Source: Desulfovibrionaceae bacterium
Lineage (GTDB): Bacteria; Desulfobacterota; Desulfovibrionia; Desulfovibrionales; Desulfovibrionaceae
Direction: 5' to 3'
DNA length: 64,000 bases
Assembly: GCA_016932995.1 (NCBI GenBank)
Contig: JAFGBU010000017.1
Location: forward strand, 1-64,000
Each line of letters opens with the position of its first letter. The first letter of the stretch is position 1. Shown here one piece after another: positions 27,429-42,072 of the stretch. The notes below the pieces were generated by a model that had not been told where the DNA came from, did not search any database, and worked only from the letters and a program-made list of their open reading frames with translations. The position numbers and the translations under genes were made by a program.

Positions 27429-28967
27429 CTAGGCCTTGAAGTCCGATTCGAAGAAGCGCGTGGCCATGACCCGTGAGCTCAGGCCCGGCTGGTAGTCCGG
27501 GTCCCGGCCGCCGCCGAAATGGTAGGCGCACAAGAACGACCCGTCCGGCAGCTCGATCCAGCCCGAGTAGCCGAAGTCGGCCGGGCTGGCCAGGCGGTCG
27601 TTCATCAGCTCCAGGACCTCGCGTTCGGCCCTGCGGTCGGGCGTCCCTTCGGAGCTGTCCCAGGCCCAGTGGTAGCTGCGGCCGTACCGCGGCTCCCTGA
27701 TCCTCAGGCTGACCCGCTTCCAGACGCTCTCCGCGGCGTTGTCGCCCTCGGCCGAGACCGTGCCCATGAGCACCGGCCTGGCCTCGGCCTGGCCCGGGTC
27801 GATCCTGATCCTCATCCGCCGCCGGCCGTTGACCGACAGGGTGCACGCGCCAGGCGAATACGTCAGCCGGATGCGGTTGAACCGGCCGGGCTCGAGCGCG
27901 GCCGACCCGGCGTCCTCCACGTCGGGCTCGATCCTGTCCGGGAACAGCCTCCACCACCGGCCGAGCCTGAGGCCCACCCCGTCGCGCCGGGCCCTGAGCA
28001 CCCGGACCTCGGCCTCCAACTCGGCCCTGGCCTGCTCCGGGTCGGTCATCGGCCGCAGGGCGTAGCGCACCACGTCGCCCTTGCCGCGCCTGGTCCTGAT
28101 GCGCAGGCCGTCCCTGGCCGGGGCGGCCGCTTCTTCGGGTGAGGCCAGGCCGTGGACCGCGAACTCGTCGAGGTCCTGCTCCAGGCCCATCCAGGCGGCC
28201 AGGCCGCTGTTCGGGCCCAGGTTGCGGTAGGTCACCAGGAGCCTGCCGCCCGAGGTCAGGCCCAGGCTGGGCCGGTGGCCGATGAGCGGCGTGGGCTCGG
28301 GATCGGACCAGGTCCGGCCGTTGTCCTTGCTCAGGCACTTGTACATGGGCTCGAACACGAAGCTGTTCTCCCTGAGCAGGGCCAGGAGCCTTGCGTCCGG
28401 CAGCCGGACCATTGAGGCCTCGCACAAAACCAGGTTCCTGTCGTAGGCCATGACCGAGAGGGCCTCCCAGTCGTGGCCCCGGTTCTTGGAGCGGTAGACC
28501 ATCTGCTCGGTCGGGGCCTGCCTGGTCTTGGGGTTGGCAAAGGTCCCGCGGTGGGTGTGGCCGGTGATGAGCAGGGTCTCGGGGTTAAGCTCCACGATCC
28601 GGTCCAGGAGCGAGTGCTGGATCTCCGGGGCCGGCCGCTCGGCCCAGTTCTCGCCCGAGTCCCGGCTCCACCACAGGGTCGGGCCGAAGTCGTCGGACAG
28701 GACCAGCTGGCCGTCGCCGAGCCTGGTCAGCCTGGGGCAGTGGCTGCGCCTGGCGCACAGGAGCCTGGGCGCGGACCAGGTCCGGCCCAGGTCCAGGCTG
28801 GTCTTGAGCAGGAGGCTGCGCCTGGCGCCCACGTGGCGGTCATACTCGTTGTAGGCCGCGATTATCCGGCCGTCCGGGGCCAGGCAGAGGTCCGGGAAGC
28901 ACAGGTATTGGCCGGGGCGCTGGTCAATGACCGTGTGCCTGGAGGTCTGGGCTGTGAGGCTTGGCAT
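27429..28967 (-). CDS. Sialidase-like (BNR/Asp-box) beta-propeller protein with insert
   Basis: 512 residues without signal peptide. Four Asp boxes are visible: LDLGRTW, RDSGENW, KNRGHDW and KDNGRTW, typical of the six-bladed sialidase/exo-glycosidase-type propeller. Between ~280 and ~430 there is a beta-rich insert (GDVVRYALRPMTDPEQARAEL... FNRIRLTYSPGACTLSVNGRR) that looks like a concanavalin-type jelly roll; the propeller then resumes (AYHFGGG). The catalytic Arg triad of true sialidases cannot be confirmed, so substrate is open. A cytoplasmic location and a place behind the aromatic operon are unusual for a glycosidase. Confidence 0.7.
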   Translation of the reverse strand: MPSLTAQTSRHTVIDQRPGQYLCFPDLCLAPDGRIIAAYNEYDRHVGARRSLLLKTSLDLGRTWSAPRLLCARRSHCPRLTRLGDGQLVLSDDFGPTLWWSRDSGENWAERPAPEIQHSLLDRIVELNPETLLITGHTHRGTFANPKTRQAPTEQMVYRSKNRGHDWEALSVMAYDRNLVLCEASMVRLPDARLLALLRENSFVFEPMYKCLSKDNGRTWSDPEPTPLIGHRPSLGLTSGGRLLVTYRNLGPNSGLAAWMGLEQDLDEFAVHGLASPEEAAAPARDGLRIRTRRGKGDVVRYALRPMTDPEQARAELEAEVRVLRARRDGVGLRLGRWWRLFPDRIEPDVEDAGSAALEPGRFNRIRLTYSPGACTLSVNGRRRMRIRIDPGQAEARPVLMGTVSAEGDNAAESVWKRVSLRIREPRYGRSYHWAWDSSEGTPDRRAEREVLELMNDRLASPADFGYSGWIELPDGSFLCAYHFGGGRDPDYQPGLSSRVMATRFFESDFKA

Positions 28968-30399: not shown

Positions 30400-31167
30400 T
30401 CAGGACCAGGCGGCCATGAACTCGGCGCTCTTGCCCCCGGCCTCGAGGTGCTTGATGAGCGCGCTCCCGAACACGGCCGCGTCCACCAGGCCCTCCAGGC
30501 CCTTGAGCTGGTCCGGGGTCTTGAGGCCGAAGCCCAGGGCCACGGGGATGTCGAAGACCTGCCTGGCGACGGCGAGCTTTTGCCTGACCTCCTCGGGCAG
30601 GGTCCTGCGCTCGCCCGTGGTCCCGAGCACGGACACGAAGTAGGCGAAGCCCGTGGCCTGCGCGGCGTACATGGCCAGGCGCTCCCTGGAGGTGTTCAGG
30701 CCGACCAGGGGCACCAGGTCCAGGCCCTGGGCCGTGAGGATGCGCTTGATGTCCACGGCCTCCTCAAAGGGCAGGTCGGCCAGGATCACGCCCGAGACCC
30801 CGGCCCGGGAGGCGTCCCGGGCAAAGGCCGCAACCCCGTACTGGAGCACGGGGTTCAGGTAGCCCATGAGCACCAGGGCCGCGGAGAACCCGGCCCTCCG
30901 GGCCGCGAGCTCGCCCAGTATCCAGGCCAGGTCCACGCCCTGGGCCAGGGCCTGCAGCGAGGCCCTCTCGACCACCGGCCCGTCGGCCACGGGGTCGGAA
31001 AAGGGCATGCCGATCTCGATTATGTCCGCGCCGGCCGCGTCCAAAGCGGCCAGCTCCTCCCAGAACCGGTCCTTGTCCGGGAACCCGGCGGGCAGGAAGG
31101 GTATCAGCGCGATCCGGCCCGAGGCGTTGGCGGCGCGGATCTTTTCAGTGAGCAGTGAGCTTTTCAT
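30400..31167 (-). CDS. trpA: Tryptophan synthase alpha subunit
   Basis: 255 residues. Converts indole-3-glycerol phosphate to indole. Catalytic Glu in DIIEIGMPFSDPVADGP and Asp in VILADLPFEE are present; the flexible loop region VSVLGTTGERRTLP and GFGLKTPDQ are typical. Ends the trp cluster; starts 3 bases after trpB stop. Confidence 0.96.
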   Translation of the reverse strand: MKSSLLTEKIRAANASGRIALIPFLPAGFPDKDRFWEELAALDAAGADIIEIGMPFSDPVADGPVVERASLQALAQGVDLAWILGELAARRAGFSAALVLMGYLNPVLQYGVAAFARDASRAGVSGVILADLPFEEAVDIKRILTAQGLDLVPLVGLNTSRERLAMYAAQATGFAYFVSVLGTTGERRTLPEEVRQKLAVARQVFDIPVALGFGLKTPDQLKGLEGLVDAAVFGSALIKHLEAGGKSAEFMAAWS

Positions 31168-31170
31168 GGA

Positions 31171-32361
31171 CTAGTCTCCTTTGCTTTCCTTTTGCGAGGC
31201 CAGGGCCTGCTCGACTATCTCCAGGTCCTTGTCCCCGCGGCCCGAGAGGCAGAGGAGCACGCTGGACCCGGGTTTGATGTCCCGGGCGTTGTCCAGGACC
31301 CAGCCCAGGGCGTGGGAGCTCTCCAGGGCGGGCAGGATGCCCTCGGTCCGGCACAGGGTCTGGAAGGCCGCGAGGGCCGAGTCGTCGGTGACCGACACGT
31401 ACCTGGCCCGGCCCGAGGCCTGCAGGTCGGAGTGCTCGGGCCCGACCCCGGGGTAGTCCAGGCCCGGGGCCACGGAGTGCGAGGGCAGTATCTGGCCCTG
31501 CCCGGTCTGCAGGAGCTTGGTCCTGGTGCCGTGGAGCACGCCCGGGCTGCCCAGGCTCAGGGTGGCCGAGTGATAGCAATCGGGCTGGCCGCTTCCGGCC
31601 GCCTCCACGCCGACCAGCTCGACCCCGGGCTCGGGCACGAACTCGTGGAACATGCCGATGGCGTTGGACCCGCCGCCCACGCAGGCCACGACCATGTCCG
31701 GCAGCCTGCCGACGCGCTCCCTGAACTGGGCCTTGGCCTCTCGGCCGATGACCGCCTGGAAGTCGCGGATCATCTCCGGGAAGGGGTGGGGCCCGACCAC
31801 CGAGCCCAGGCAGTAGTGGGTGTCCCGCTGCTCGGCGATCCAGTGCCTGAGCGCGGCGTTGATGGCGTCCTTCAAGGTCTGGGTCCCGGTCTTGACCGGC
31901 TCGACCCGCGCGCCCAGAAGCTCCATGCGCCGCACGTTGTGGGCCTGGCGGCGTATGTCCACCGCGCCCATGTACACGACGCACTCAAGCCCCAGCTTGG
32001 CCGCGGCCGTGGCCGTGGCCACGCCGTGCTGACCGGCCCCGGTCTCGGCCAGGAGCGTGCCCTTGCCGAGCATCTTGGTCAGCAGGCCCTGGCCCATGGT
32101 GTTGTTGATCTTGTGCGCCCCGGTGTGGGCCAGGTCCTCGCGCTTGAGCCAGAGGTCCAGGCCGAGCCTCTGGGACAGGTTGTCGCAGCGGGTCAGGGCC
32201 GTGGGCCGGCCCACGAAGTCCTTGAGCAGGGCCTTGAACTGCCTGTCGAACTCCTCGGAGCGCACGATGGTCTCCATGGCCCGCTCCAGCTCCAGGAGCG
32301 GGGGCATGAGCAGCTCGGGCACGAACTGGCCCCCGAAGTCGCCGAAATAGCCTTTTTTCAT
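31171..32361 (-). CDS. trpB: Tryptophan synthase beta subunit
   Basis: 396 residues from ATG 32361 (ggaggagag upstream). PLP lysine in HTGAHKINNTMGQ; ETGAGQHGVA, the substrate loop; GGGSNAIGMF phosphate loop. Normal TrpB1 length. The start overlaps the trpF stop (ATGA), so translation is coupled. Joins indole to serine. Confidence 0.97.
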   Translation of the reverse strand: MKKGYFGDFGGQFVPELLMPPLLELERAMETIVRSEEFDRQFKALLKDFVGRPTALTRCDNLSQRLGLDLWLKREDLAHTGAHKINNTMGQGLLTKMLGKGTLLAETGAGQHGVATATAAAKLGLECVVYMGAVDIRRQAHNVRRMELLGARVEPVKTGTQTLKDAINAALRHWIAEQRDTHYCLGSVVGPHPFPEMIRDFQAVIGREAKAQFRERVGRLPDMVVACVGGGSNAIGMFHEFVPEPGVELVGVEAAGSGQPDCYHSATLSLGSPGVLHGTRTKLLQTGQGQILPSHSVAPGLDYPGVGPEHSDLQASGRARYVSVTDDSALAAFQTLCRTEGILPALESSHALGWVLDNARDIKPGSSVLLCLSGRGDKDLEIVEQALASQKESKGD

Positions 32362-33005
32362 CTCTCCTCCGTGGTTGCTGCAAGTGTCCGGCCCAGGGCC
32401 TTGAACACCGCCCTGAGCCTGGCCGGGTCCTTGATCCCGGGCGAGTCCTCGACCCCGGAATTGAAGTCCAGGCCGGGCGGGGAGCAGGCCGCCAGCGCGG
32501 TCCGGACATTGTCCGGGCCGAGACCGCCGGCAAGGAACCAAACTTTATTTATGTCAATATGTTGAATCAAGCCAAAATCAATGGACCTGGCGTGGCCGCC
32601 GCCCGATCTTCCGGCGTCCAGCAGGAAGTGGCGGCAGAACGGCGCAAAGCGTTCCAGGTCTTTTTGCAGGCCGCGGGCGTCCGCGTAGGACTCGGGCCAC
32701 AGGGTCTTGATCACCCGCCGGGGCCCGATCGCGGCGCAGAACGCCTCGCTTTGTTTGCCGTGGAGCTGGGCCAGGTCCAGCCCGGCCCGGTCCATGATCT
32801 CGAGGACCTCCCCTGGGGTCTGGTCCACGAAGACCCCGACCTTGAGCCCGCGGCCGGGCTCGATTTCGGCCGGGAACCCCGGGTCCGTGTTGCGCGGGCT
32901 TCCGGGATGGAAGATGAAGCCCATAAGGTCCGCGCCGAGCCTTTGGCACAGCTCCACGTCCGCCCTGCGGGTCAGGCCGCAGACCTTGATCAGGGGCCGG
33001 TTCAT
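32358..33005 (-). CDS. trpF: Phosphoribosylanthranilate isomerase
   Basis: 215 residues. ATG 33005 overlaps the trpC stop by 4 bases. IKVCGLTR holds the catalytic Cys; GFIFHPGSPRN, VGVFVDQ, QLHGKQS, LLDAGRSGG and LAGGLGPDNV follow the family (the usual catalytic LDA Asp is present). FNSGVEDSPGIKDP closes the barrel. Region from 32530-32560 is unusually AT-rich for this window. Confidence 0.95.
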   Translation of the reverse strand: MNRPLIKVCGLTRRADVELCQRLGADLMGFIFHPGSPRNTDPGFPAEIEPGRGLKVGVFVDQTPGEVLEIMDRAGLDLAQLHGKQSEAFCAAIGPRRVIKTLWPESYADARGLQKDLERFAPFCRHFLLDAGRSGGGHARSIDFGLIQHIDINKVWFLAGGLGPDNVRTALAACSPPGLDFNSGVEDSPGIKDPARLRAVFKALGRTLAATTEER

Positions 33006-33781
33006 GGCTGCTTCCTCCCGGTCAGCTTGGCCAGGGCCAGGCCCGGGTCGCTTGAGGCCATGAGCGCGCTGCCCACGAGCACGGCCGCAAAGCCCAGACC
33101 GCCCAGCTCCAGGACCTGGCCGCGGTCCTGTATGCCGCTGGCCGAGATCCATGTCTCGCCGGGCTCTTTCAGCTCGACCAGCCGGCGGGAGTTGTCCAGG
33201 TCGACCTCAAGGCTGTCCAGGTCCCGGTTGTTGACCTGGATGATCCAGGCCCCGGCCCGGCGCGCCCGGTTCAGGTCCGCGCGGTCAAAGACCTCGACCA
33301 CGGGCTCGAGGTCCAGGCGCTCGGCGCGCTTGATCATCTCGAAGAGCTCGGAGTCGAGCAGGAACATGCGCGCGATGAGCAGCAGGGCCGAGGCCGGGGT
33401 GGCCGCGGTCTGGACCACCTGGAGCGGGTCGAGCAGGAAGTCCTTGCGCAGCAGGGGCAGGCCCGGGCCGCTCATGTCCGCCAGGAAGCCCAAATGGCCC
33501 TGGAAGTAGCGCTCCTCGGTGAGCACGGACATGGCCGCGGCCCCGGCCCGGGCGTAGGCCTCGGCCGCCAGCTCGGGCGTGAGCCCGAGGTTTATCTCGC
33601 CCCTGGAGGGCGAGGCCCGCTTGTACTCGGCGATCACGGCCGCGCCCGGACCGGGCGAAACAAGGGCCCGGGAAAACGACGGCCTCTTGCCGGAAAAGGC
33701 CGGCGGCAGCCTGCCCGCGTCCGCGGCCTGCCTGAGCCGGGCGATCTCCCCGGCCTTGGCCCGGCGGAACTTGTCAAGCAT
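33002..33781 (-). CDS. trpC: Indole-3-glycerol phosphate synthase
   Basis: 259 residues. VIAEYKRASPSRG carries the conserved Lys, SVLTEERYFQGHL and PLLRKDFLLDPLQV the catalytic Glu/Lys, QVNNRDLDSLEVDL and SASGIQD the ribose/phosphate loop. Overlaps trpD by 8 bases. Confidence 0.96.
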   Translation of the reverse strand: MLDKFRRAKAGEIARLRQAADAGRLPPAFSGKRPSFSRALVSPGPGAAVIAEYKRASPSRGEINLGLTPELAAEAYARAGAAAMSVLTEERYFQGHLGFLADMSGPGLPLLRKDFLLDPLQVVQTAATPASALLLIARMFLLDSELFEMIKRAERLDLEPVVEVFDRADLNRARRAGAWIIQVNNRDLDSLEVDLDNSRRLVELKEPGETWISASGIQDRGQVLELGGLGFAAVLVGSALMASSDPGLALAKLTGRKQP

Positions 33782-34778
33782 CGAGCACCCCTTCCTTCAG
33801 GCCGCTGGCCACGGCCTCGCGGGCCTTTTCCGCGGCCCGCTCCAGGCTCAGGTCCTCGAGCAGGAACAGGGCCGCGGCCAGGTTCAGGGCGGCCATGTCC
33901 ATCATGGCCTCCGGTCCCCGGCCCGCGAGCACCGCCCTGAGCGCGGCCACGGCCTGGTCCTTGTCCTCGACGCGCATGTCCTCGGGCGCGCGCCGGGCAA
34001 AGCCCAGGGCCTCGGGGTCGATGTCCAGGCGGGTTACGCGGCCGCCCTCGATCAGCAGGGCCCGGGTCGGGCCGAAGGGCGTGAGCTCGTCAAAGCCCGT
34101 GGCCTGGTCGTGGACCACCAGGGCCCGCTCGATCCCGGTCAGGGCCAGGGCCTCGGCCATGAGCTCCACGGCCGCGGGGTCGCCCACGCCCAGGAGCTGG
34201 TGCGTGGGCCGGGCCGGGTTGAGCAGGGGGCCCATGAGGTTGAACAGGGTCCTGACGCCCAGCTCCTTGCGCACCGGCATGACGTGGGCGAACGCCGGGT
34301 GGTAGGCCGGGGCGAACAGAAAGGCGAAGTTGCGCCTGGCCAGCTCGGCCGTGGCCTGTTCCGGGTCCGAGGTCAGGGGCAGGCCCAGGGCCTCGACCGC
34401 GTCCGCGCTGCCGCAGGACGAGGACACCGCCCGGTTGCCGTGCTTGACCACCTGGTGGCCCAGCCCGGCCAAAAACAGGGCCACGGCCGTGGAGCAGTTG
34501 AAGCTGCTCGAGGCGTCGCCGCCCGTGCCGCAGGTGTCGATGCTTTTCCCCTCGACGTCCTTGACCAGCTTGGCGTGCTTAAGTGCCGCAGACACGGCCG
34601 AGGCCAGCTCCCGGGCCGTTGCGCCCTTGGCCCTCAGGCCCATGAGCAGGGCCCCGGCCTGGGAGGCGGTGAGGCGCCCGGCCATGAGCTCGCCAAAGGC
34701 CGCGTCGGCCTGTTCCTGGTCCAGGTCCCGGCCCTGGGCCAGGGTTTCCAGTATCTCCTTCACGCTGTTCTTGGTCAT
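33774..34778 (-). CDS. trpD: Anthranilate phosphoribosyltransferase
   Basis: 334 residues. Not fused to TrpG. DTCGTGGDASSSFNCSTAVA binds PRPP pyrophosphate, VKHGNRAVSSSCGSADAVEALG, and ARPTHQLLGV are standard. Overlaps trpG stop by 4 bases (ATGA). Confidence 0.97.
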   Translation of the reverse strand: MTKNSVKEILETLAQGRDLDQEQADAAFGELMAGRLTASQAGALLMGLRAKGATARELASAVSAALKHAKLVKDVEGKSIDTCGTGGDASSSFNCSTAVALFLAGLGHQVVKHGNRAVSSSCGSADAVEALGLPLTSDPEQATAELARRNFAFLFAPAYHPAFAHVMPVRKELGVRTLFNLMGPLLNPARPTHQLLGVGDPAAVELMAEALALTGIERALVVHDQATGFDELTPFGPTRALLIEGGRVTRLDIDPEALGFARRAPEDMRVEDKDQAVAALRAVLAGRGPEAMMDMAALNLAAALFLLEDLSLERAAEKAREAVASGLKEGVLDA

Positions 34779-35380
34779 TTTTCCCTCCCCGCAGGCCCGC
34801 TTGAGCGGGCCTGGTCTTGATCCAGAAAGTTCTTCAAAAGCCTTGGGCCCTCGGGCGTGAGTATGGACTCCGGGTGGAACTGGACCCCGCTCCAGGGCCG
34901 GTCGCGGAAGGCCAGGCCCATGACCTCGTTGTCCTCGCTCCTGGCCGTGAACTCCAGGTTGTCCGGCGCGCCCTGTTCGCGCACCGCCAGGGAGTGGTAG
35001 CGGCAGGCCTCGAAGGGGTCGGGCAGGCCCTTGAACAGGCCCTGGCCCGAATGGCTGATCATGGACGTCTTGCCGTGCATGATGCGCCTTGCTCCGACCA
35101 CCTCGGCCCCGGCGAACGCGCCCAGTATCTGGTGCCCCAGGCAGACCCCGAGCAGGGGCGCGGTCCTGGGCAGCAGGGCCAAAAACTCAAGGCACAGCCC
35201 GGCGTTCTCGGGCCGGCTCGGGCCGGGCGAGATGCACACCCGCTCCAGGGTCCCGGAGCGGGCCAGATCGAGCAGTTCGGGCTCGTCGTTGCGCAGCACC
35301 CTGGGGTCCTGGCCCAGGACCTGGAAGGCCTGGACCAGGTTGAAGGTGAACGAGTCGAAGTTATCTATTAGCAAAAACAT
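34775..35380 (-). CDS. trpG: Anthranilate synthase glutamine amidotransferase subunit
   Basis: 201 residues, class I amidotransferase. IDNFDSFTFNLVQ start, oxyanion region SPGPSRPENAG, nucleophile Cys in GVCLGHQILGAF, and the His-Glu pair in VQFHPESILTPEG. Starts inside the trpE end (20-base overlap), so coupled translation is expected. Confidence 0.96.
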   Translation of the reverse strand: MFLLIDNFDSFTFNLVQAFQVLGQDPRVLRNDEPELLDLARSGTLERVCISPGPSRPENAGLCLEFLALLPRTAPLLGVCLGHQILGAFAGAEVVGARRIMHGKTSMISHSGQGLFKGLPDPFEACRYHSLAVREQGAPDNLEFTARSEDNEVMGLAFRDRPWSGVQFHPESILTPEGPRLLKNFLDQDQARSSGPAGREK

Positions 35381-36773
35381 CGCCGTCCTCCGTGGCCTTG
35401 ATCACCTCCAGGAGCACCCTGGCCTTGTTGTTGCATTCCAGCCACTCCTTTTGGGGGTCCGAGTCATAGACAATGCCCGCCCCGGCCTGCCAGAAGCAGC
35501 GGCCGTCCCTGAACCACATGCTGCGGATGGTGATGCCCGTGTCCAGGTCCACCCGGCCCTTGTCCAGGCCGATCCAGCCGATGGTCCCGGCGTAGGGCCC
35601 CCTGGCCCGGCCCTCGAGCTCGGCGATGATCTCCATGGCCCTGATCTTGGGCGCGCCGCTCACGGTCCCGGCCGGGAAGGTGGCCGCGAGCACGTCCAGG
35701 GCGTCGAGCCCGGGCCTGAGCTCGGCGTCCACGTACGAGGTCAGGTGCATGACGTGCGAGAAGCGCTCGACCTGCATGAGCCTCTGGACCTTGACCGTGC
35801 CCGGCTTGGCGATGCGGCCCAGGTCGTTGCGGCCCAGGTCCACGAGCATGACGTGCTCGGCCCGCTCCTTGGGGTCGGCCAGGAGCTCCTCGGCCAGGTC
35901 GCGGTCCTGGGCCTCGTCCGCGCCCCTGGGCCTGGTCCCGGCTATGGGCCGGACCTCCAGGGCCCCGCCCTCGCAGCGGACCATCATCTCCGGGGACGAG
36001 CCGACCAGGGTCACGCCCGGCAGGCGCATGAAGAACATGAACGGCGAGGGGTTGGCCTGCCTGAGCCTGCGGTAGACCTGGAACGGGTCGCCCGAAAAGG
36101 GGGCCTCGAACCTGGTGGACAGGACTACCTGGATGGCCTCGCCCTGGGTGATGAGCTCCTTGGCCGCGGACACGGCCCGGCAGAACTCCTCCTGGCCGGG
36201 CGCGGCCGAGACCTCGCCCGCCTCGGCCCGGCCCGCCTCCGGCGGGACCGGCGAGCCGTTGGGCGAGGCGTCCTCGTCCAGGCTCAGGAAGCAGCAGCGG
36301 TGGCGCAGGTGGTCGAAGAGCACGAGCCTGCCCGGCAGGGCCAGGCAGGTCTCGGCCTCTTGCGGCGGCATCAGGGCCGCGAGCTTGGGCTCGAACATGC
36401 CGGCCACGCCGAAGCCGAAGTAGCCGTAGAGCCCCCTGGTCAGGGCGGGCAGGTCTTCGAGGCCCTGGCCGGGGATCAGCTCGATCTTTCGCATGAGCGC
36501 CTTGAGCCCGGGCAGGAAGTCTTGGCCGTCGAGGTCCCTGAGCGCGGCCAGGGCCGGGTCCGGGGCGTCCACGGCCAGCCTGCCGGCCCGGGCCCGGACC
36601 AGGAGCCTGAAGTCCCAGGCCATGAGGCTGAAGCGGCCCAGCCGGCCGTCCACCTCGGCGCTCTCCAGCAGGATGCCGGGCCGCGTCCCGACCAGGGACA
36701 GGTACAGGCTGATGGGCGTCTGCACGTCGGCCGGCAGCCATTTGCCGTACTGTCTCAGTCTTATCTTGGTCAT
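35361..36773 (-). CDS. trpE: Anthranilate synthase component I
   Basis: 470 residues. N-terminal GILLESAEVDGRLGRFSLMA contains the LLES-type tryptophan feedback site, so the enzyme should be inhibited by Trp. The chorismate-binding half is complete: IQVVLSTRFEA, SSPEMMVRCEG, IAGTRPRG, HVMLVDLGRNDLGRIA, GTVSGAPKIRAMEII and GIVYDSDPQKEW. ATG 36773 has cggaggg upstream. It is the first gene after the intra-operon attenuator at 36815-36908. Confidence 0.97.
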   Translation of the reverse strand: MTKIRLRQYGKWLPADVQTPISLYLSLVGTRPGILLESAEVDGRLGRFSLMAWDFRLLVRARAGRLAVDAPDPALAALRDLDGQDFLPGLKALMRKIELIPGQGLEDLPALTRGLYGYFGFGVAGMFEPKLAALMPPQEAETCLALPGRLVLFDHLRHRCCFLSLDEDASPNGSPVPPEAGRAEAGEVSAAPGQEEFCRAVSAAKELITQGEAIQVVLSTRFEAPFSGDPFQVYRRLRQANPSPFMFFMRLPGVTLVGSSPEMMVRCEGGALEVRPIAGTRPRGADEAQDRDLAEELLADPKERAEHVMLVDLGRNDLGRIAKPGTVKVQRLMQVERFSHVMHLTSYVDAELRPGLDALDVLAATFPAGTVSGAPKIRAMEIIAELEGRARGPYAGTIGWIGLDKGRVDLDTGITIRSMWFRDGRCFWQAGAGIVYDSDPQKEWLECNNKARVLLEVIKATEDGDVFANR

Positions 36774-36814: not shown

Positions 36815-36846
36815 AAAAAAACCGCGCCCCGGGGCGCGGTTTTTTT
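36815..36846 (-). terminator. Intrinsic terminator between tyrA and trpE (part of attenuator)
   Basis: On the transcript: seven A, 5' arm ccgcgcccc (36839-36831), 3' arm ggggcgcgg (36830-36822), then seven U. The whole element is a perfect palindrome, so it would fold with a tiny CCGG-centred loop. It sits within one run of same-strand biosynthetic genes, upstream of trpE, which makes sense only if it is conditional. Confidence 0.9.
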
Positions 36847-36908
36847 CGGCTCCTTAGCCTTGACCCGTATAGGCCGCACCCCTGCTGTTCTCAGTCACGC
36901 CACCACCA
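36815..36908 (-). promoter_or_regulatory. Probable Trp attenuator using the tyrA C-terminus as leader peptide
   Basis: Three consecutive Trp codons (36908-36900) are followed by two codons and the tyrA stop (36893-36891), eight bases, and then ggggugcgg (36882-36874). That segment pairs with the terminator 5' arm ccgcgcccc over nine positions with one G-U. A ribosome finishing tyrA would cover ggggugcgg and let the terminator form. A ribosome stalled on the Trp codons would leave it free to act as antiterminator. Layout is that of classical trp attenuation, except that the leader peptide is the tail of a 251-residue enzyme. Structure prediction was by eye only. Confidence 0.75.
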
Positions 36909-37646
36909 GGAGGCCCGCTGGGCCAGAAGGTCGAGGTCGCCGCCCGCGGCCAGGCCCAGGTAGGACATGTACTGGCGCACGGTCTCCTGGAGAAAGGGGT
37001 TGGCCTCGGCAATGGTCGCGAACAGCTCCTGGTCCTCGGTCATCATCTTGCGGGCCGAGTCCAGGCGGCGCTTCAGCGACGGGGTGACGAACATCTCGAT
37101 GCCCGGGACCTGGCGCATGGAGGCCAGAAAGACCACCGTGGTCGTGAAGTTCAGGCCCTGGACATAGGCCATGGCCCGGTCGTGCTGCTCGGCCGTGGCC
37201 TCGAAGGGGCTGAAGCCCAGCCTGGACATCAGCCCGGACACGCGCCCGAGGGCCGCCTCCCCGCGGCCCGGGACCAGGGCCACCCGGGGGGTGAAGCCCT
37301 CGGGTATCTCGGGCCCGAACAGGGGGTGCGCGCCGACCACGGGCCCGGGATGGGCCGCGAGCATCTGCTCCATGGGCCGGACCTTGACCGAGCAGACGTC
37401 GATCAGGATCGTGTCCGGGTCCAGGAACGGGCAGACCCGCTCAAGGGTCTCGGCCATGGCCGTGACCGGCACGCTCAGCAGGACCAGGTCCGCGCCGGAC
37501 ACGGCCCGGACCACGCTTCCTTTGTCCAGGGGCCGGCCCAGGGTCCGGACCTCGATTGCGGCCTCCCGCGCCCGCTCGCAGATGAGCCGGCCCATGCGGC
37601 CCGAGGCCCCGGCCAGGGCCATGGTCTTTATTTCCCGGCCGTCCAT
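36891..37646 (-). CDS. tyrA: Prephenate dehydrogenase with WWWRD tail
   Basis: 251 residues from ATG 37646, which overlaps the aroA stop (TAATG). Rossmann start MALAGASGRMGRLICERA, then LLSVPVTAMAETL, DVCSVKVRPMEQML, GAHPLFGP and QGLNFTTTVVFLASM are those of the arogenate/prephenate dehydrogenase family; the GAHPLFGP His is the catalytic one. The protein ends ASWWWRD: three Trp codons right before the stop, of no obvious enzymatic use and placed exactly where a Trp leader peptide is needed for the downstream trp genes. Confidence 0.93.
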   Translation of the reverse strand: MDGREIKTMALAGASGRMGRLICERAREAAIEVRTLGRPLDKGSVVRAVSGADLVLLSVPVTAMAETLERVCPFLDPDTILIDVCSVKVRPMEQMLAAHPGPVVGAHPLFGPEIPEGFTPRVALVPGRGEAALGRVSGLMSRLGFSPFEATAEQHDRAMAYVQGLNFTTTVVFLASMRQVPGIEMFVTPSLKRRLDSARKMMTEDQELFATIAEANPFLQETVRQYMSYLGLAAGGDLDLLAQRASWWWRD

Positions 37647-38971
37647 TATTGCCCGCCTCCGGCCCGGACCTTGGCCCACTCATCCCAGAAATCCGGAAAT
37701 GACTTGGCCACGCAGCCCGGATCGTCCAGCCGGGCGTCGATGCCCGCCAGGCCGAACAGGGCCAGGCTCATGGCCATGCGGTGGTCGCCGCGGGTGGCGA
37801 AGTCGATGCGCCTGCCCGCGGGCAGGGGCGCGGGCTCGATAACGATGCCGTCGTCGAGCAGGGCGGTCCGGCACCCGGTCTTGGCTATCTCCGCGGCCAG
37901 GACCTCCAGGCGGTCGGACTCCTTTATGCGCAGGTGGGCCACGTTGCGGATGGTCGTCGGCCCGTCGGCAAAGGCCGCGACCACGGCCACCGTGGGCACC
38001 AGGTCCGGGCAGCGGCCCATGGTCAGCTCCTGGCCCGACAGCTTGCCGGGCATGACCGCGACCCCCTGCTCGTCCCACTTGGCCCCTGCGCCCATGCGGG
38101 TCAAGATGTCCAGGATGGCCCGGTCGCCCTGCAGGGAGCCCACGGCCAGGCCCTTGACCGTGACCGGGGCCGGGCCCACGGCCCCGGCGGCCAGGAAGTA
38201 CGAGCCGTTGCTCCAGTCGCCCTCGACCCGGTAGGCGCAGGCCGAGGGCCTGCCGGGCAGGACCACGAACCTCAGGCGGCCGGGCTCAACGGCCCGGATG
38301 GACCGCCAGGGGACCTGGACCCAGGCCTCGCGCTCCAGGACCTCGGCCCGGAAGGCGATCTTGAAGTCCTCCATGGTCTTCAGGGTCAGGGCCACGTAGG
38401 GCCAGGACACGGCCTTTTGCCCGACCACGGACACGGTCACCGGGCCCTTGGCCAGGCAGGAGGCCATGAGCAGGCCGGAGAGGTATTGGCTGCTCTCCTC
38501 AAGGCTTATGTCCACTTGGCCGGCCTCAAATCCTCGGCTTTCCATGATAAACGGCGGGCAGCCCGGCTCGCCCTCCCAGATGAAGCCCACGCCCAGGCCC
38601 TCCAGGGCCCGGGCTAGCTCGCCCACCGGCCGTTGGTGCAGCCTGCCCCGGCCGAAGACCCGGAAGCGGCCGCCCACGGCCGCGGCCACTGCCGTGAGCA
38701 GGCGGCAGGAGGTCCCGGACTCGCCCATGTCCAGGTCAACGGCCTGGTCCGGGGCCTTGCGCTCCTCGGGGATGCCCCGGACCTGGACGCGGCGGTCCTG
38801 TTTTTTGAAGGCCGCGCCGCACGCGGCCAGGCAGGACACGGTCCTCTCGGTGTCCTGGCTGACGAGCAGGTTCTCCACAACCGACTCGCCCCTGGCCAGG
38901 GCCGCGGCCATGAGCGCCCGGTGGGACAGGGACTTGGAGGCCGGGGCGTTGACGCTCACCGGGGGTCTCAT
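37646..38971 (-). CDS. aroA: 3-phosphoshikimate 1-carboxyvinyltransferase (EPSP synthase)
   Basis: 441 residues from ATG 38971 (TGATG with the pheA stop). APASKSLSHRALMAAAL carries the phosphoshikimate/PEP lysine; MGESGTSCRLLTA, RPVGELARAL, QVDISLEESSQYLSGLLMA, and C-terminal AHLRIKESDRLEVLA and DHRMAMSLALFGL are typical. The SLEESSQYLS stretch departs from the common SSQ(F/Y)-S form, as in other Desulfovibrio-type sequences. Confidence 0.95.
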   Translation of the reverse strand: MRPPVSVNAPASKSLSHRALMAAALARGESVVENLLVSQDTERTVSCLAACGAAFKKQDRRVQVRGIPEERKAPDQAVDLDMGESGTSCRLLTAVAAAVGGRFRVFGRGRLHQRPVGELARALEGLGVGFIWEGEPGCPPFIMESRGFEAGQVDISLEESSQYLSGLLMASCLAKGPVTVSVVGQKAVSWPYVALTLKTMEDFKIAFRAEVLEREAWVQVPWRSIRAVEPGRLRFVVLPGRPSACAYRVEGDWSNGSYFLAAGAVGPAPVTVKGLAVGSLQGDRAILDILTRMGAGAKWDEQGVAVMPGKLSGQELTMGRCPDLVPTVAVVAAFADGPTTIRNVAHLRIKESDRLEVLAAEIAKTGCRTALLDDGIVIEPAPLPAGRRIDFATRGDHRMAMSLALFGLAGIDARLDDPGCVAKSFPDFWDEWAKVRAGGGQ

Positions 38972-40077
38972 CAGCGTATGTCCCCGCTGTCCTGCTGGGC
39001 CCCGGCCGGGTACGAGCCCAGGACGCGCAGGGTGTGGCAGTTGTCTTTCAGCTCGGCGAGCAGGCTTTCGTATTCCGCGCTGCTCAGGTCGCACTCCAGG
39101 TCCGCGAAGAACACGTACTTCCACTTCTCGCCCCGGAAGGGCCGCGACTCCAGCTTGGTCAGGTTGATGTTCCTGCCGGCCAGGGTGTTGAGCACCCCGG
39201 CCAGGGCCCCTGGCCGGTCCGGGGTGGTGAACAGGATCGAGGTCTTGTCGCGGTTGCCGCCCTTGGAGGGCGCCGGGCCGATGACCAGGAACCTGGTCCA
39301 GTTGTCCGGCAGGTCCTCCAAATGCTCGGCCAGGACGTTTAGCCCGAACATGTTGCTCAGCCTGTGGCTGCCGATGGCCGCGGCCCCGGGGCTGCCCGCG
39401 GCCAGCTCAGCGGCCCGGGCCGTGCTCGCGGCCGGGATCAGCGGCCTGCCGGGCAGGTTGTTCTTGAGCCACTCGCCGCACTGCTCCAGGGCCTTGGGGT
39501 GCGAGTGGACCTCGCGGACCTCGGACAAGACCTTGGCCGAGCTCAGCAGGCTGTGGCTGATGCGGCAGAATATCTCGGCCTGGATGAACACCGGGTAGCG
39601 CATGAACAGGTCCGCGGCCTGGCCCACTGTGCCCTGGAGCGAGTTCTCGAGCGGTATGACCCCCATCTCGGCCTCGCCGTCGGCCACGGCCCTGAAGATG
39701 TCCTCGAACCCGTCCCTGGGCGTGAGCTCCGCGGAATGGCCCAGGTACTCTATCCCCGCGAAGTAGGAAAAGGTGCCCTCCGGGCCCAGGTACACGACCC
39801 GCTCGGGCCGCTGCAGGCGGCGGGAGGAGGACAAGACCTCGCGGTAGATGGCCCGCAGGTGCTTCTCGGGCAGGGGCCCGGGGTTCTCCCGGCACAGGCG
39901 CTCCAGGACCTCCTTCTCCCTGAAGGGCTTGAACACCGGCTCGCCGCCGGACTTGACCCGGCCCACGGCCAGGCTGATCCCGGCCCTCTGGTTCAGGAGC
40001 TCGAGTATTTGGCTGTCGATCTCGTCTATCCTGGCCCTCAGGGGGCCGATGGCCTTGTTTTCCTCGCTCTTTGCCAT
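38971..40077 (-). CDS. pheA: Chorismate mutase / prephenate dehydratase (P-protein)
   Basis: 368 residues. AroQ mutase ~10-90 (RARIDEIDSQILELLNQRAGISLAVGRVK), dehydratase ~98-270 (YLGPEGTFSYFAG, PLENSLQGTVGQ, and NWTRFLVIG in place of TRF), ACT domain ~280-360 (KTSILFTTPDRPGALAGVLNTL, LTKLESRPFRGEKWKYVFFADLE) for Phe feedback inhibition. Start ATG 40077, six bases after the preceding stop. Confidence 0.96.
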   Translation of the reverse strand: MAKSEENKAIGPLRARIDEIDSQILELLNQRAGISLAVGRVKSGGEPVFKPFREKEVLERLCRENPGPLPEKHLRAIYREVLSSSRRLQRPERVVYLGPEGTFSYFAGIEYLGHSAELTPRDGFEDIFRAVADGEAEMGVIPLENSLQGTVGQAADLFMRYPVFIQAEIFCRISHSLLSSAKVLSEVREVHSHPKALEQCGEWLKNNLPGRPLIPAASTARAAELAAGSPGAAAIGSHRLSNMFGLNVLAEHLEDLPDNWTRFLVIGPAPSKGGNRDKTSILFTTPDRPGALAGVLNTLAGRNINLTKLESRPFRGEKWKYVFFADLECDLSSAEYESLLAELKDNCHTLRVLGSYPAGAQQDSGDIR

Positions 40078-40082
40078 GTGCT

Positions 40083-41054
40083 CTAGGCCTCTTTTATGTC
40101 TTCCTTGATGCGCATGCCGAAGTGCCTGCCTGCCTGGTCCGTGCGGCACAAAATCTCGTCCCCGGGCTTGAGACTGACCACGCTCACCGGCTCGCCCCCG
40201 GGCCTGACCACGCGGATGGTCTCGGCGTTCTGGAGGAATATCTGGCCCGTGGCCTTGCCGGCCTTGGCCGTGATCAGGAGCATGGGCCGGACCTCGACCT
40301 TGACCCGGCCCACGGTGGCCAGGCCCGCGGAGCCGTCGGCCGAGACCACCAGGACCTCGCTGCCGGCCCGAAGCTCCTCCAGGTAGGAGGTCTTGTCCCC
40401 GGGCATCTGGGCGTAGGCGTGCACCGCCCCGGCGTTGATCCGGAAGGGCCGGGCCGCGACATAGGGGTTGGACTCGGTCTCGGCGTGGACCAGGAAGGTG
40501 AAGGCGCTGGAGTTGCCGACCAGCATGCCCTGGCCGGTTTTGAGCATGGAGATGGTGTCCACGCAGACCCGGTGGCCCAGGCCGGCCGGGTCAATGGCCG
40601 TGACCTTGGCCTTGACCAGGTCCAGCCTGCCCTGGCTGATCTTGATCTCGGCCACGATGGCCTTGAGCTCGGCCGCGGCCTCGGGCAGGACCACCAGGGT
40701 GTCCACGCCGCGCTCCAGTATCCCGGCCGCGAGCCGGGCCCGGTCCAGGGACTCGACCTCCACGGCCAGGCCCTCGGTCTGGGCCAGGAGGTTCTCGACC
40801 GGGATGATCTCCCAGCCCTTGGCCAGGACGACCATCTGGCCGGACTTGAGCCTCTTGGCCGCGTCCTGCTCGTCGGACTTGGCCTTGAGCTCTATGCGGG
40901 TTGCGGCCTCCGGGGTCAGGACCTCGACCCGGCCCAGGGCCTTGACCGCGTCGAGGCGGTCGGCCTCGACCATGATCGCGTCCACCCCGGACTCCAGGGC
41001 CAGGGTGACCAGCTTCTTCTGAAAGGGCACGGCCTTGAAGATGATCTTTTTCAT
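40083..41054 (-). CDS. aroB': 3-dehydroquinate synthase II (archaeal type)
   Basis: 323 residues from ATG 41054; the open frame continuing upstream is read-through of another gene's frame. The type II enzyme acts on 2-amino-3,7-dideoxy-D-threo-hept-6-ulosonic acid and needs NAD. Marks: WEIIPVENLLAQ, GHRVCVDTISMLKTGQGMLVGNSSAFTFLVHAE, RPFRINAGAVHAYAQMP, TSYLEELRAGSEVLVV and EDIKEA. It replaces the usual AroB in this route, which runs from ADTH instead of DAHP, as known for methanogens and Desulfovibrio. Confidence 0.95.
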   Translation of the reverse strand: MKKIIFKAVPFQKKLVTLALESGVDAIMVEADRLDAVKALGRVEVLTPEAATRIELKAKSDEQDAAKRLKSGQMVVLAKGWEIIPVENLLAQTEGLAVEVESLDRARLAAGILERGVDTLVVLPEAAAELKAIVAEIKISQGRLDLVKAKVTAIDPAGLGHRVCVDTISMLKTGQGMLVGNSSAFTFLVHAETESNPYVAARPFRINAGAVHAYAQMPGDKTSYLEELRAGSEVLVVSADGSAGLATVGRVKVEVRPMLLITAKAGKATGQIFLQNAETIRVVRPGGEPVSVVSLKPGDEILCRTDQAGRHFGMRIKEDIKEA

Positions 41055-41065
41055 GTCCCCCCCGC

Positions 41066-41863
41066 TCAGGCCTTGAGCGTTTCCAGGGTCTCCCGGACCC
41101 CGGCGTTCTCGTGCACGATCCTGCTCAGCGCGGCCACCAGCCTCTGCGGGGAGTCGGCCTGGAACACGTTGCGGCCCACGGACAGACCGGCGCCGCCGGC
41201 CATGAGCGAGTCCGCGACCATGCGCAGAAAGGCCTCGGTGCTGCCCATCTTGGGGCCGCCGGCGATGACCACGGGCACGCAGCAGGCGTCGACGACCCTG
41301 GCAAAGGAGTCCGGGTCCCCGGTGTAGGGCACCTTGACCACGTCCGCGCCGAGCTCCACGCCCACCCGGGCGCAGTGGGCGACCATGTCGGGATCGAACT
41401 CGCTCTTCACCTTGGGGCCGCGGGCGTAGACCATGGCCAGCAGGGGCACGCCCCAGGAGGCCGCGTCCGCCGCGATCCTGCCCAGGTCCCTGAGCATGCC
41501 GGCCTCGGTCTCGTCCCCGAGGTTGACGTGCACGCTCACCCCGTCCGCGCCGAGGCGCACGGCCTCTTCCACCCCGCAGACCAGGGTCTTGGCGTTGGGG
41601 AACGGGGACAGGGAGGTGCTCGCGGACAGGTGCACGATGAGCCCGATGTCCTTGCCCTGGGTGCGGTGTCCGCAGCGGACCAGGCCCTTGTGCATGAGCA
41701 CGGCGTTGGCCCCGCCGGCAACGATGTTGCCCACGGCCTCGCGCATGTCCACGAGGCCGTGGATGGGCCCCACGCTCACCCCGTGGTCCATGGGCACGAT
41801 TATGGTCCGTTTGGTGTCCCGGTTGAAGATGCGCTCCAGCCTGATCGCCTTTCCGATATGCAT
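41066..41863 (-). CDS. aroA': ADTH synthase (class I fructose-bisphosphate-aldolase-like; AroA')
   Basis: 265 residues from ATG 41863 (aaggagagcggtc). DeoC/FbaB-type barrel: [64 protein letters not shown]. The Schiff-base Lys is in VVKVPY. Condenses aspartate semialdehyde with 6-deoxy-5-ketofructose phosphate to feed DHQ synthase II. First structural gene of the operon, preceded by the aromatic leader and terminator. Confidence 0.93.
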
Positions 41864-41917
41864 GACCGCTCTCCTTGTTGCTCCCCGGCCCGCTTGCCCA
41901 AGCCGGGGCAACCAAAC

Positions 41918-41953
41918 AAAAGGGCCGCCGGCTTGTCTGCGCCTGCGGCCCTT
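41918..41953 (-). terminator. Leader terminator upstream of the aromatic operon
   Basis: Transcript arms aagggccgc (41953-41945) and gcggccctt (41928-41920) enclose a 16-base loop that can pair further (aggc/gccg), followed by a short U-rich stretch (uuuuguuugg). It lies between the aromatic leader ORF and the first structural gene, 55 bases before its ATG. Position argues for a conditional terminator. Confidence 0.75.
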
Positions 41954-41979: not shown

Positions 41980-42072
41980 TTAAGGCTGCACCCCTCCCCC
42001 GACCGCGGCGCGGCTGTACCAGTACCAAAAATAATAGGCGGCAAAGCTGCTCTGGTTGGGGGGCTGGGTCAT
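41980..42072 (-). CDS. Aromatic leader peptide (30 aa, YYFWYWY run)
   Basis: ATG 42072 to TAA 41980. Residues 13-19 are YYFWYWY, seven aromatic residues in a row covering all three aromatic amino acids; another Phe is at 10. No stable function is likely for such a peptide; it has the form of an attenuation leader. A GTG four codons upstream is a second possible start; the ribosome site is weak (gggg ~14 bases before the ATG). The terminator at 41918-41953 and aroA' follow. Confidence 0.8.

Follow-up and report, generated by a model that had tools for sequence, protein, structure and literature searches.

The junction between tyrA and trpE in this Desulfovibrionaceae genome very probably carries a ribosome-mediated transcription attenuator that lies inside the aro-trp operon and takes the C-terminal end of TyrA as its Trp sensor; on the strength of the sequence, a probability of about 0.9 may be given to this reading. 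It is supported by the sensor codons, the terminator, the alternative pairing, the fixed spacing, the co-variation and the interchange with stand-alone leaders. From these we infer that the ribosome stalls on the WWW codons at Trp shortage, that antitermination and readthrough follow, that the gate depends on Trp, and that it closes when the ribosome is at the stop codon.

The tyrA-trpE junction in the window

The window, i.e., the whole stretch of 64,000 nucleotides analysed, contains a 12-gene aro-trp operon on its minus strand, in the order aroA'-aroB'-pheA-aroA-tyrA-trpE-G-D-C-F-B-A. The part 5' of tyrA (37646..41863) consists of aroA' (ADH synthase, 41863-41066), aroB' (from 41054), pheA (from 40077) and aroA (from 38971). 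Then follow tyrA (36891..37646), encoding a prephenate dehydrogenase of 251 aa with its ATG at 37646, a start that has homologous counterparts in relatives; trpE (35361..36773, ATG 36773), the first gene past the proposed Trp gate; and trpG-trpD-trpC-trpF-trpB-trpA (30400..35380), the rest of the gated part. All lie on the minus strand and were called from ORFs and NCBIfam models, tyrA by the prephenate dehydrogenase families and trpE by its best match, anthranilate synthase component I; several matches, those of TyrA and TrpE included, scored below the curated cut-off, and the best matches were the expected functions. The names trpB and trpF were taken from the ORF sequences, aroB' was named by its position in the Desulfovibrio vulgaris operon, and some other gene names rest on sequence resemblance together with that operon (PMC1173090). 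No promoter-like site was found at the tyrA-trpE junction in a scan of the window. On the 3' side of the trp genes, a 512-aa ORF on the minus strand (27429-28967) gives the impression, from its sequence, of containing sialidase-like repeats (for instance SRDSGENW, SKDNGRTW), and it adjoins a phenylacetate-CoA ligase-like gene.

The 3' end of tyrA on the minus strand reads Trp-Trp-Trp-Arg-Asp-stop, as the preliminary description of this DNA had stated, and is located at 36908-36891: the three tandem codons TGG TGG TGG (36900..36908), the proposed stalling site, are followed by CGT GAC (36899-36894) and the stop TGA (36891..36893). The sequence GGGGUGCGG, 17 nt 3' of the last Trp codon, is able to pair with the 5' arm of the intrinsic terminator that precedes trpE; as segment 2, the candidate antiterminator strand (GGGGTGCGG, 36874..36882, minus strand), it begins 8 nt past the tyrA stop. 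All nine positions pair with the arm, one of them as G-U, exactly as described before, and the ungapped helix has a shuffle p = 0.006. The palindromic terminator with its U7 tract, also part of the preliminary description, was recovered by RNA folding at 36839-36815 on the minus strand. Its hairpin core, CCGCGCCCCGGGGCGCGG (segments 3 and 4, 36822..36839), has 7 bp and a CCGG loop, with a folding energy of -13.6 kcal/mol; A7 lies directly 5' of it, and the T7 of the DNA (36815..36821) directly 3'. A consensus scan listed a terminator neither at this junction nor at the operon head, though folding shows both; we read this as a limit of the scan's rules (at the junction, probably those for stem and loop) and not as a sign that the terminators are missing.

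RNA folding, which the preliminary description had suggested as a check, gave both of the expected states. When the RNA is cut before the 3' arm is made, the antiterminator forms at about -25 kcal/mol; in the complete RNA, with the A7:U7 extension, the terminator forms with P of about 0.999 at equilibrium, even when segment 2 is free. Because equilibrium favours the terminator in the complete RNA, kinetics and the order of synthesis must decide between the two states, as in classical attenuators.

On this basis, a mechanism of gating may be proposed. With ample charged tRNA-Trp, the ribosome would clear the WWW codons, arrive at the tyrA stop and hinder the G-rich segment just 3' of it; once segment 2 is hindered, the terminator would form and trpE-A would be left untranscribed. 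Under a shortage of charged tRNA-Trp, the ribosome would stall on WWW, and segment 2, about 16 nt downstream, would be left exposed to pair with the emerging 5' arm of the terminator, so that the polymerase would continue into trpE. Of the two positions of the ribosome, the stalled one fits the preliminary description fully: the helix starts 13-21 nt past the last Trp codon (range by genus), and segment 2 is clear of a ribosome on WWW. That a ribosome at the tyrA stop would cover the segment is clear in most relatives and marginal in the window. In the window, a standard footprint, taken to reach about 15 nt beyond the start of the P site, is estimated to lie over just the first 1-2 nt of segment 2. 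In most relatives, segment 2 falls within the final codons of tyrA or across the stop, frequently in a tail of the Lys-Gly-Gly-Pro-stop kind, and occlusion there would therefore be direct. Occlusion at the stop is thus marginal in the window genome and more convincing in most relatives; the switch at the window junction may be a looser one, or some other hindrance may come into play there.

Terminators ahead of trp genes are regulated in other phyla by TRAP-like and T-box-like devices, and the hairpin could in principle be read in the same way, by a trans-acting factor or directly by a tRNA instead of by the ribosome. We regard this as exceedingly unlikely here, since no Rfam family reached threshold in the window or at four related loci (L307, L010, L032 and L257), RF00513 Trp_leader included, and the codon-anchored spacing described below points to the ribosome.

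Junctions and pairing across Desulfovibrionales

Searches with TyrA across Desulfovibrionales provided about 195 loci for analysis. A strict terminator finder overlooked hairpins with weak U runs, and a relaxed finder was used for the junction counts. In total, 104 tyrA-trpE junctions with a terminator were found, in 25 genera and in all six Desulfovibrionales families sampled. According to the preliminary description, the sensor would be refuted by relatives in which the terminator is kept and the Trp codons or the complementary segment are missing. This comparison was run and does not refute it: three or more tandem Trp codons are present at 103 of the 104 junctions (three in 98, four in five), and the pairing segment is retained at a fixed spacing, with compensating sequence change. 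At the Nitratidesulfovibrio oxamicus locus (L257), for example, tyrA ends in WWWRSHTERGGVRPS and a stop codon, and a terminator follows. The sole terminator-bearing junction with two Trp codons, L015, has the tail ACWWFYEENQRGGV, with Phe at the third position (WWF). When tyrA and trpE are adjacent without a terminator (n=32), there are two Trp codons in 21 cases and three in 11. Counted by genus, at least three Trp codons occur in 24/25 with a terminator versus 11/26 without (Fisher p = 4e-5). A tree-paired, phylogenetically independent test of Trp count against terminator went in the expected direction in about 3 of 4 pairs with a median p of 0.25, and is underpowered; the TyrA-core tree is too weakly resolved to establish that the third Trp and the terminator were lost together.

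Some junctions depart from this pattern in other respects. In the tyrA-trpE gap of L003, L009, L102 and L105, WWW is accompanied by strong hairpins from which the U tract is absent; these could be a translational form masking the ribosome site of trpE, or a decayed attenuator. In Solidesulfovibrio-like genomes (L028, L035, L118, L119, L122, L124, L127, L128, L166 and L169), the stop of tyrA and the start of trpE overlap (gap -4), the terminator is absent, and there are only two Trp codons. In the Desulfonatronum-like L016 and L018, arrays of short repeats of the GTGAACAGTGAACAG / GTTCAACGGTTCAACG type lie between the terminator and trpE.

The position of the helix, scored as the best ungapped pairing of the tail region with the 5' arm of the terminator, is fixed relative to the Trp codons. 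The helix starts 16.2 +/- 1.8 nt past the last Trp codon (genus means), whereas its position relative to the stop codon scatters by +/- 6.9 nt, the stop lying before, inside or behind the helix. In shuffled controls, the scatter of the helix position is +/- 17 nt, and a start 10-24 nt past Trp, observed in 100% of cases, is reached in 29%. This codon-anchored spacing is what a stalled ribosome predicts, because a ribosome on WWW frees everything from roughly 10 nt on. Taking one junction per genus (25 genera), the shuffle p-values combine to p = 1e-20, a figure that overstates the evidence because the genera are incompletely independent. Less open to that objection are the comparisons of own and foreign arms: the segments pair better with their own arm than with those of other genera (Wilcoxon p = 3e-8), and permutation of the arms among genera gives z = 7.3-8.0 with p = 0.0002, the lowest value that 5000 permutations allow.

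The same spacing bears on a second alternative. In E. coli rph-pyrE, as described in PMC2784333 (citing Bonekamp 1984), translation of the end of the upstream gene controls an intercistronic terminator. The layout at tyrA-trpE is the same, with the end of an upstream gene just before an intercistronic attenuator, and one may suppose a similar translation-coupled polarity, in which a ribosome near the polymerase at the tyrA end suppresses the terminator, and Trp starvation lowers trp expression. Such polarity has no need of an antiterminator segment anchored to Trp codons, and it would regulate a biosynthetic operon in the wrong direction; we consider it very unlikely.

A further alternative is a plain operon-internal terminator that fixes the aro:trp ratio, with WWW serving a structural role and the complementarity arising as a by-product of high G+C content. 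Many TyrA proteins keep WW or WWW with neither trpE nor a terminator downstream: among detached TyrA genes, 32/58 retain Trp runs, mostly in one genus, and these may be relics of a former junction or a preference of the protein. The G-rich stretch of these detached Trp-run genes is the weaker one, its longest G run being 2.3 versus 4.0. The AlphaFold model has WWW where the last TyrA helix ends, with fair confidence. Since Trp runs persist in some attenuator-less TyrA, which the preliminary description had not foreseen, the motif may in part serve the protein itself. Nevertheless, a plain terminator is improbable in view of a complementary segment that is fixed relative to the Trp codons instead of the stop and that co-varies with the terminator arm. 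In addition, the TyrA proteins of 25 loci sampled outside the order contain no Trp pair at the tail and no more than a single Trp within the last 45 residues. The leaders ahead of detached trpE, presented next, argue against it as well.

Stand-alone leaders and the head of the operon

When trpE is located away from tyrA, the attenuator elements are found again in a different setting. At 15 of the 16 such loci examined, a short ORF 5' of trpE carries tandem Trp codons (WWW or WW) and is accompanied by a terminator and a complementary segment; examples are MTRLSHTILFSLQGWWWRKQLRGGDVRA (L307) and MLNAFSLTFSAYRWWWRVVDVKGGVRPA (L313), and stand-alone WWW leaders 5' of trpE include those of L307, L309-L313 and L319-L321. 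The segment is spaced 15.0 +/- 1.7 nt past Trp, a mean that leaves out L318, the sixteenth locus, in which apparently one Trp codon is correctly placed. In single short leaders, the pairing is not always significant (p 0.003-0.24). Since these stand-alone leaders share the geometry of the tyrA tail, an attenuator is far likelier than a coincidental terminator. The role of the TyrA tail as a sensor, proposed in the preliminary description, thereby gains support from four sides: the near-constant Trp run of the terminator-bearing junctions, the fixed spacing, the co-variation and the stand-alone leaders of the same geometry. In five genomes (G003, G008, G012, G068 and G277), tyrA is present and no trpE match was found; tryptophan auxotrophy or assembly gaps are possible reasons.

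A second putative gate, not part of the preliminary description, stands at the head of the operon. A leader ORF on the minus strand (41980..42072), with the tract YYFWYWY, is proposed as a Phe/Tyr/Trp sensor and has equivalents at 53 related loci; it is followed on the same strand by a terminator, GGGCCGC...GCGGCCC with TTTTGTTT (41914..41951), whose antiterminator strand lies towards the 3' end of the leader ORF. A dense Phe/Tyr/Trp tract and then a terminator are seen at all 54 loci with a recognised leader, the window included. The antiterminator pairing has p < 0.05 in 96% of the 54 loci; in the window itself, the ungapped pairing is not significant (p = 0.44), and a helix of 11 bp with one bulge could form at -23.2 kcal/mol. 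The head-leader tract contains Trp at 46/46 loci with an adjacent trpE versus 2/6 without one, and the codon content of the leader thus tracks the genes of the operon. With an aromatic leader at its head, the operon is probably gated twice, by an outer gate that would answer a shortage of any aromatic amino acid and, nested within it, by an inner gate that would answer a shortage of Trp alone.

The outer gate appears to have been glimpsed before. A putative attenuator ahead of aroA' in D. vulgaris is included in Table 7 of Song et al. 2005 (PMC1173090), and it corresponds, in the same operon, to the head gate of the window. In the accessible part of that survey, the predicted attenuator is placed before aroA' and not between tyrA and trp, its leader peptide is undescribed, and no mention of a tyrA-trpE gate was found.

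Relation to known systems and implications

The tyrA-trpE junction shares with the E. coli trp attenuator (trpL; RF00513) tandem Trp codons, an intrinsic terminator before trpE, and a mutually exclusive antiterminator just past the Trp-stalled ribosome. Three of the features that define a classical attenuator are therefore present, namely, tandem codons for the end product, an intrinsic terminator and a mutually exclusive antiterminator that co-varies. What sets the junction apart is the lack of a dedicated leader peptide. A 251-residue enzyme gene of the same operon provides the proposed sensor with its last codons, and a short leader ORF for this purpose is found only in relatives with a detached trpE. 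Further differences from trpL are that no clear 1:2 pause hairpin is evident in the window fold, that no Rfam match is obtained, and that the device would control a longer operon in its second half only. In the aro-trp supraoperon of Bacillus subtilis, a regulated terminator likewise stands between the aro genes and trpE of a single long operon; there, the TRAP protein binds the RNA and no codon sensor is involved, whereas the tyrA-trpE junction has Trp codons.

Two other systems come close from different directions. The layout of rph-pyrE is matched in that the end of a full-length gene adjoins an intercistronic terminator, the regulation at tyrA-trpE being the inferred part; rph-pyrE senses UTP via ribosome-polymerase coupling, whereas tyrA-trpE has tandem Trp codons and a co-varying antiterminator. 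In Chlamydia trachomatis YtgCR, a triple Trp motif in a real coding gene is the Trp sensor for trp genes, and stalling there brings about premature termination inside the gene and thereby reduces a repressor that acts in trans (PMC7755916); at the tyrA tail, stalling would relieve the terminator directly in cis. Neither rph-pyrE nor YtgCR joins a Trp-codon sensor in an upstream enzyme to an antiterminator in cis. In agreement with the preliminary description, which knew of no account of such an arrangement, we found no earlier description of a tyrA-tail attenuator in the open-access literature searched; older comparative work in subscription journals could mention it.

Taken jointly, it is reasonably likely that the C-terminus of an enzyme has been shaped across the order by regulation at the mRNA level, that leader and tail are interchangeable, and that the two gates form a nested cascade. 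If so, the WWW tail and the Gly-rich residues following it would exist because their codons form the Trp sensor and the antiterminator, and trpE, on leaving tyrA, would have gained a short ORF of its own that encloses the sensor, a leader gene from the end of an enzyme. The presence of the tail form in all six families suggests that it is ancestral, on a tree without an inferred root.

If this is true, ribosome-mediated attenuation could do without a dedicated leader peptide, with the end of a functional upstream enzyme as its sensor. Searches for short leader ORFs would miss every sensor of this kind, and similar gates may therefore hide inside many operons. A side effect is also predicted: Trp starvation would open the trp genes and at the same time delay the synthesis of full-length TyrA, and would shift chorismate towards Trp. 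Within Desulfovibrionales, the tail-type, detached-leader and lost forms would provide a natural series on the rise and loss of regulatory leader genes.
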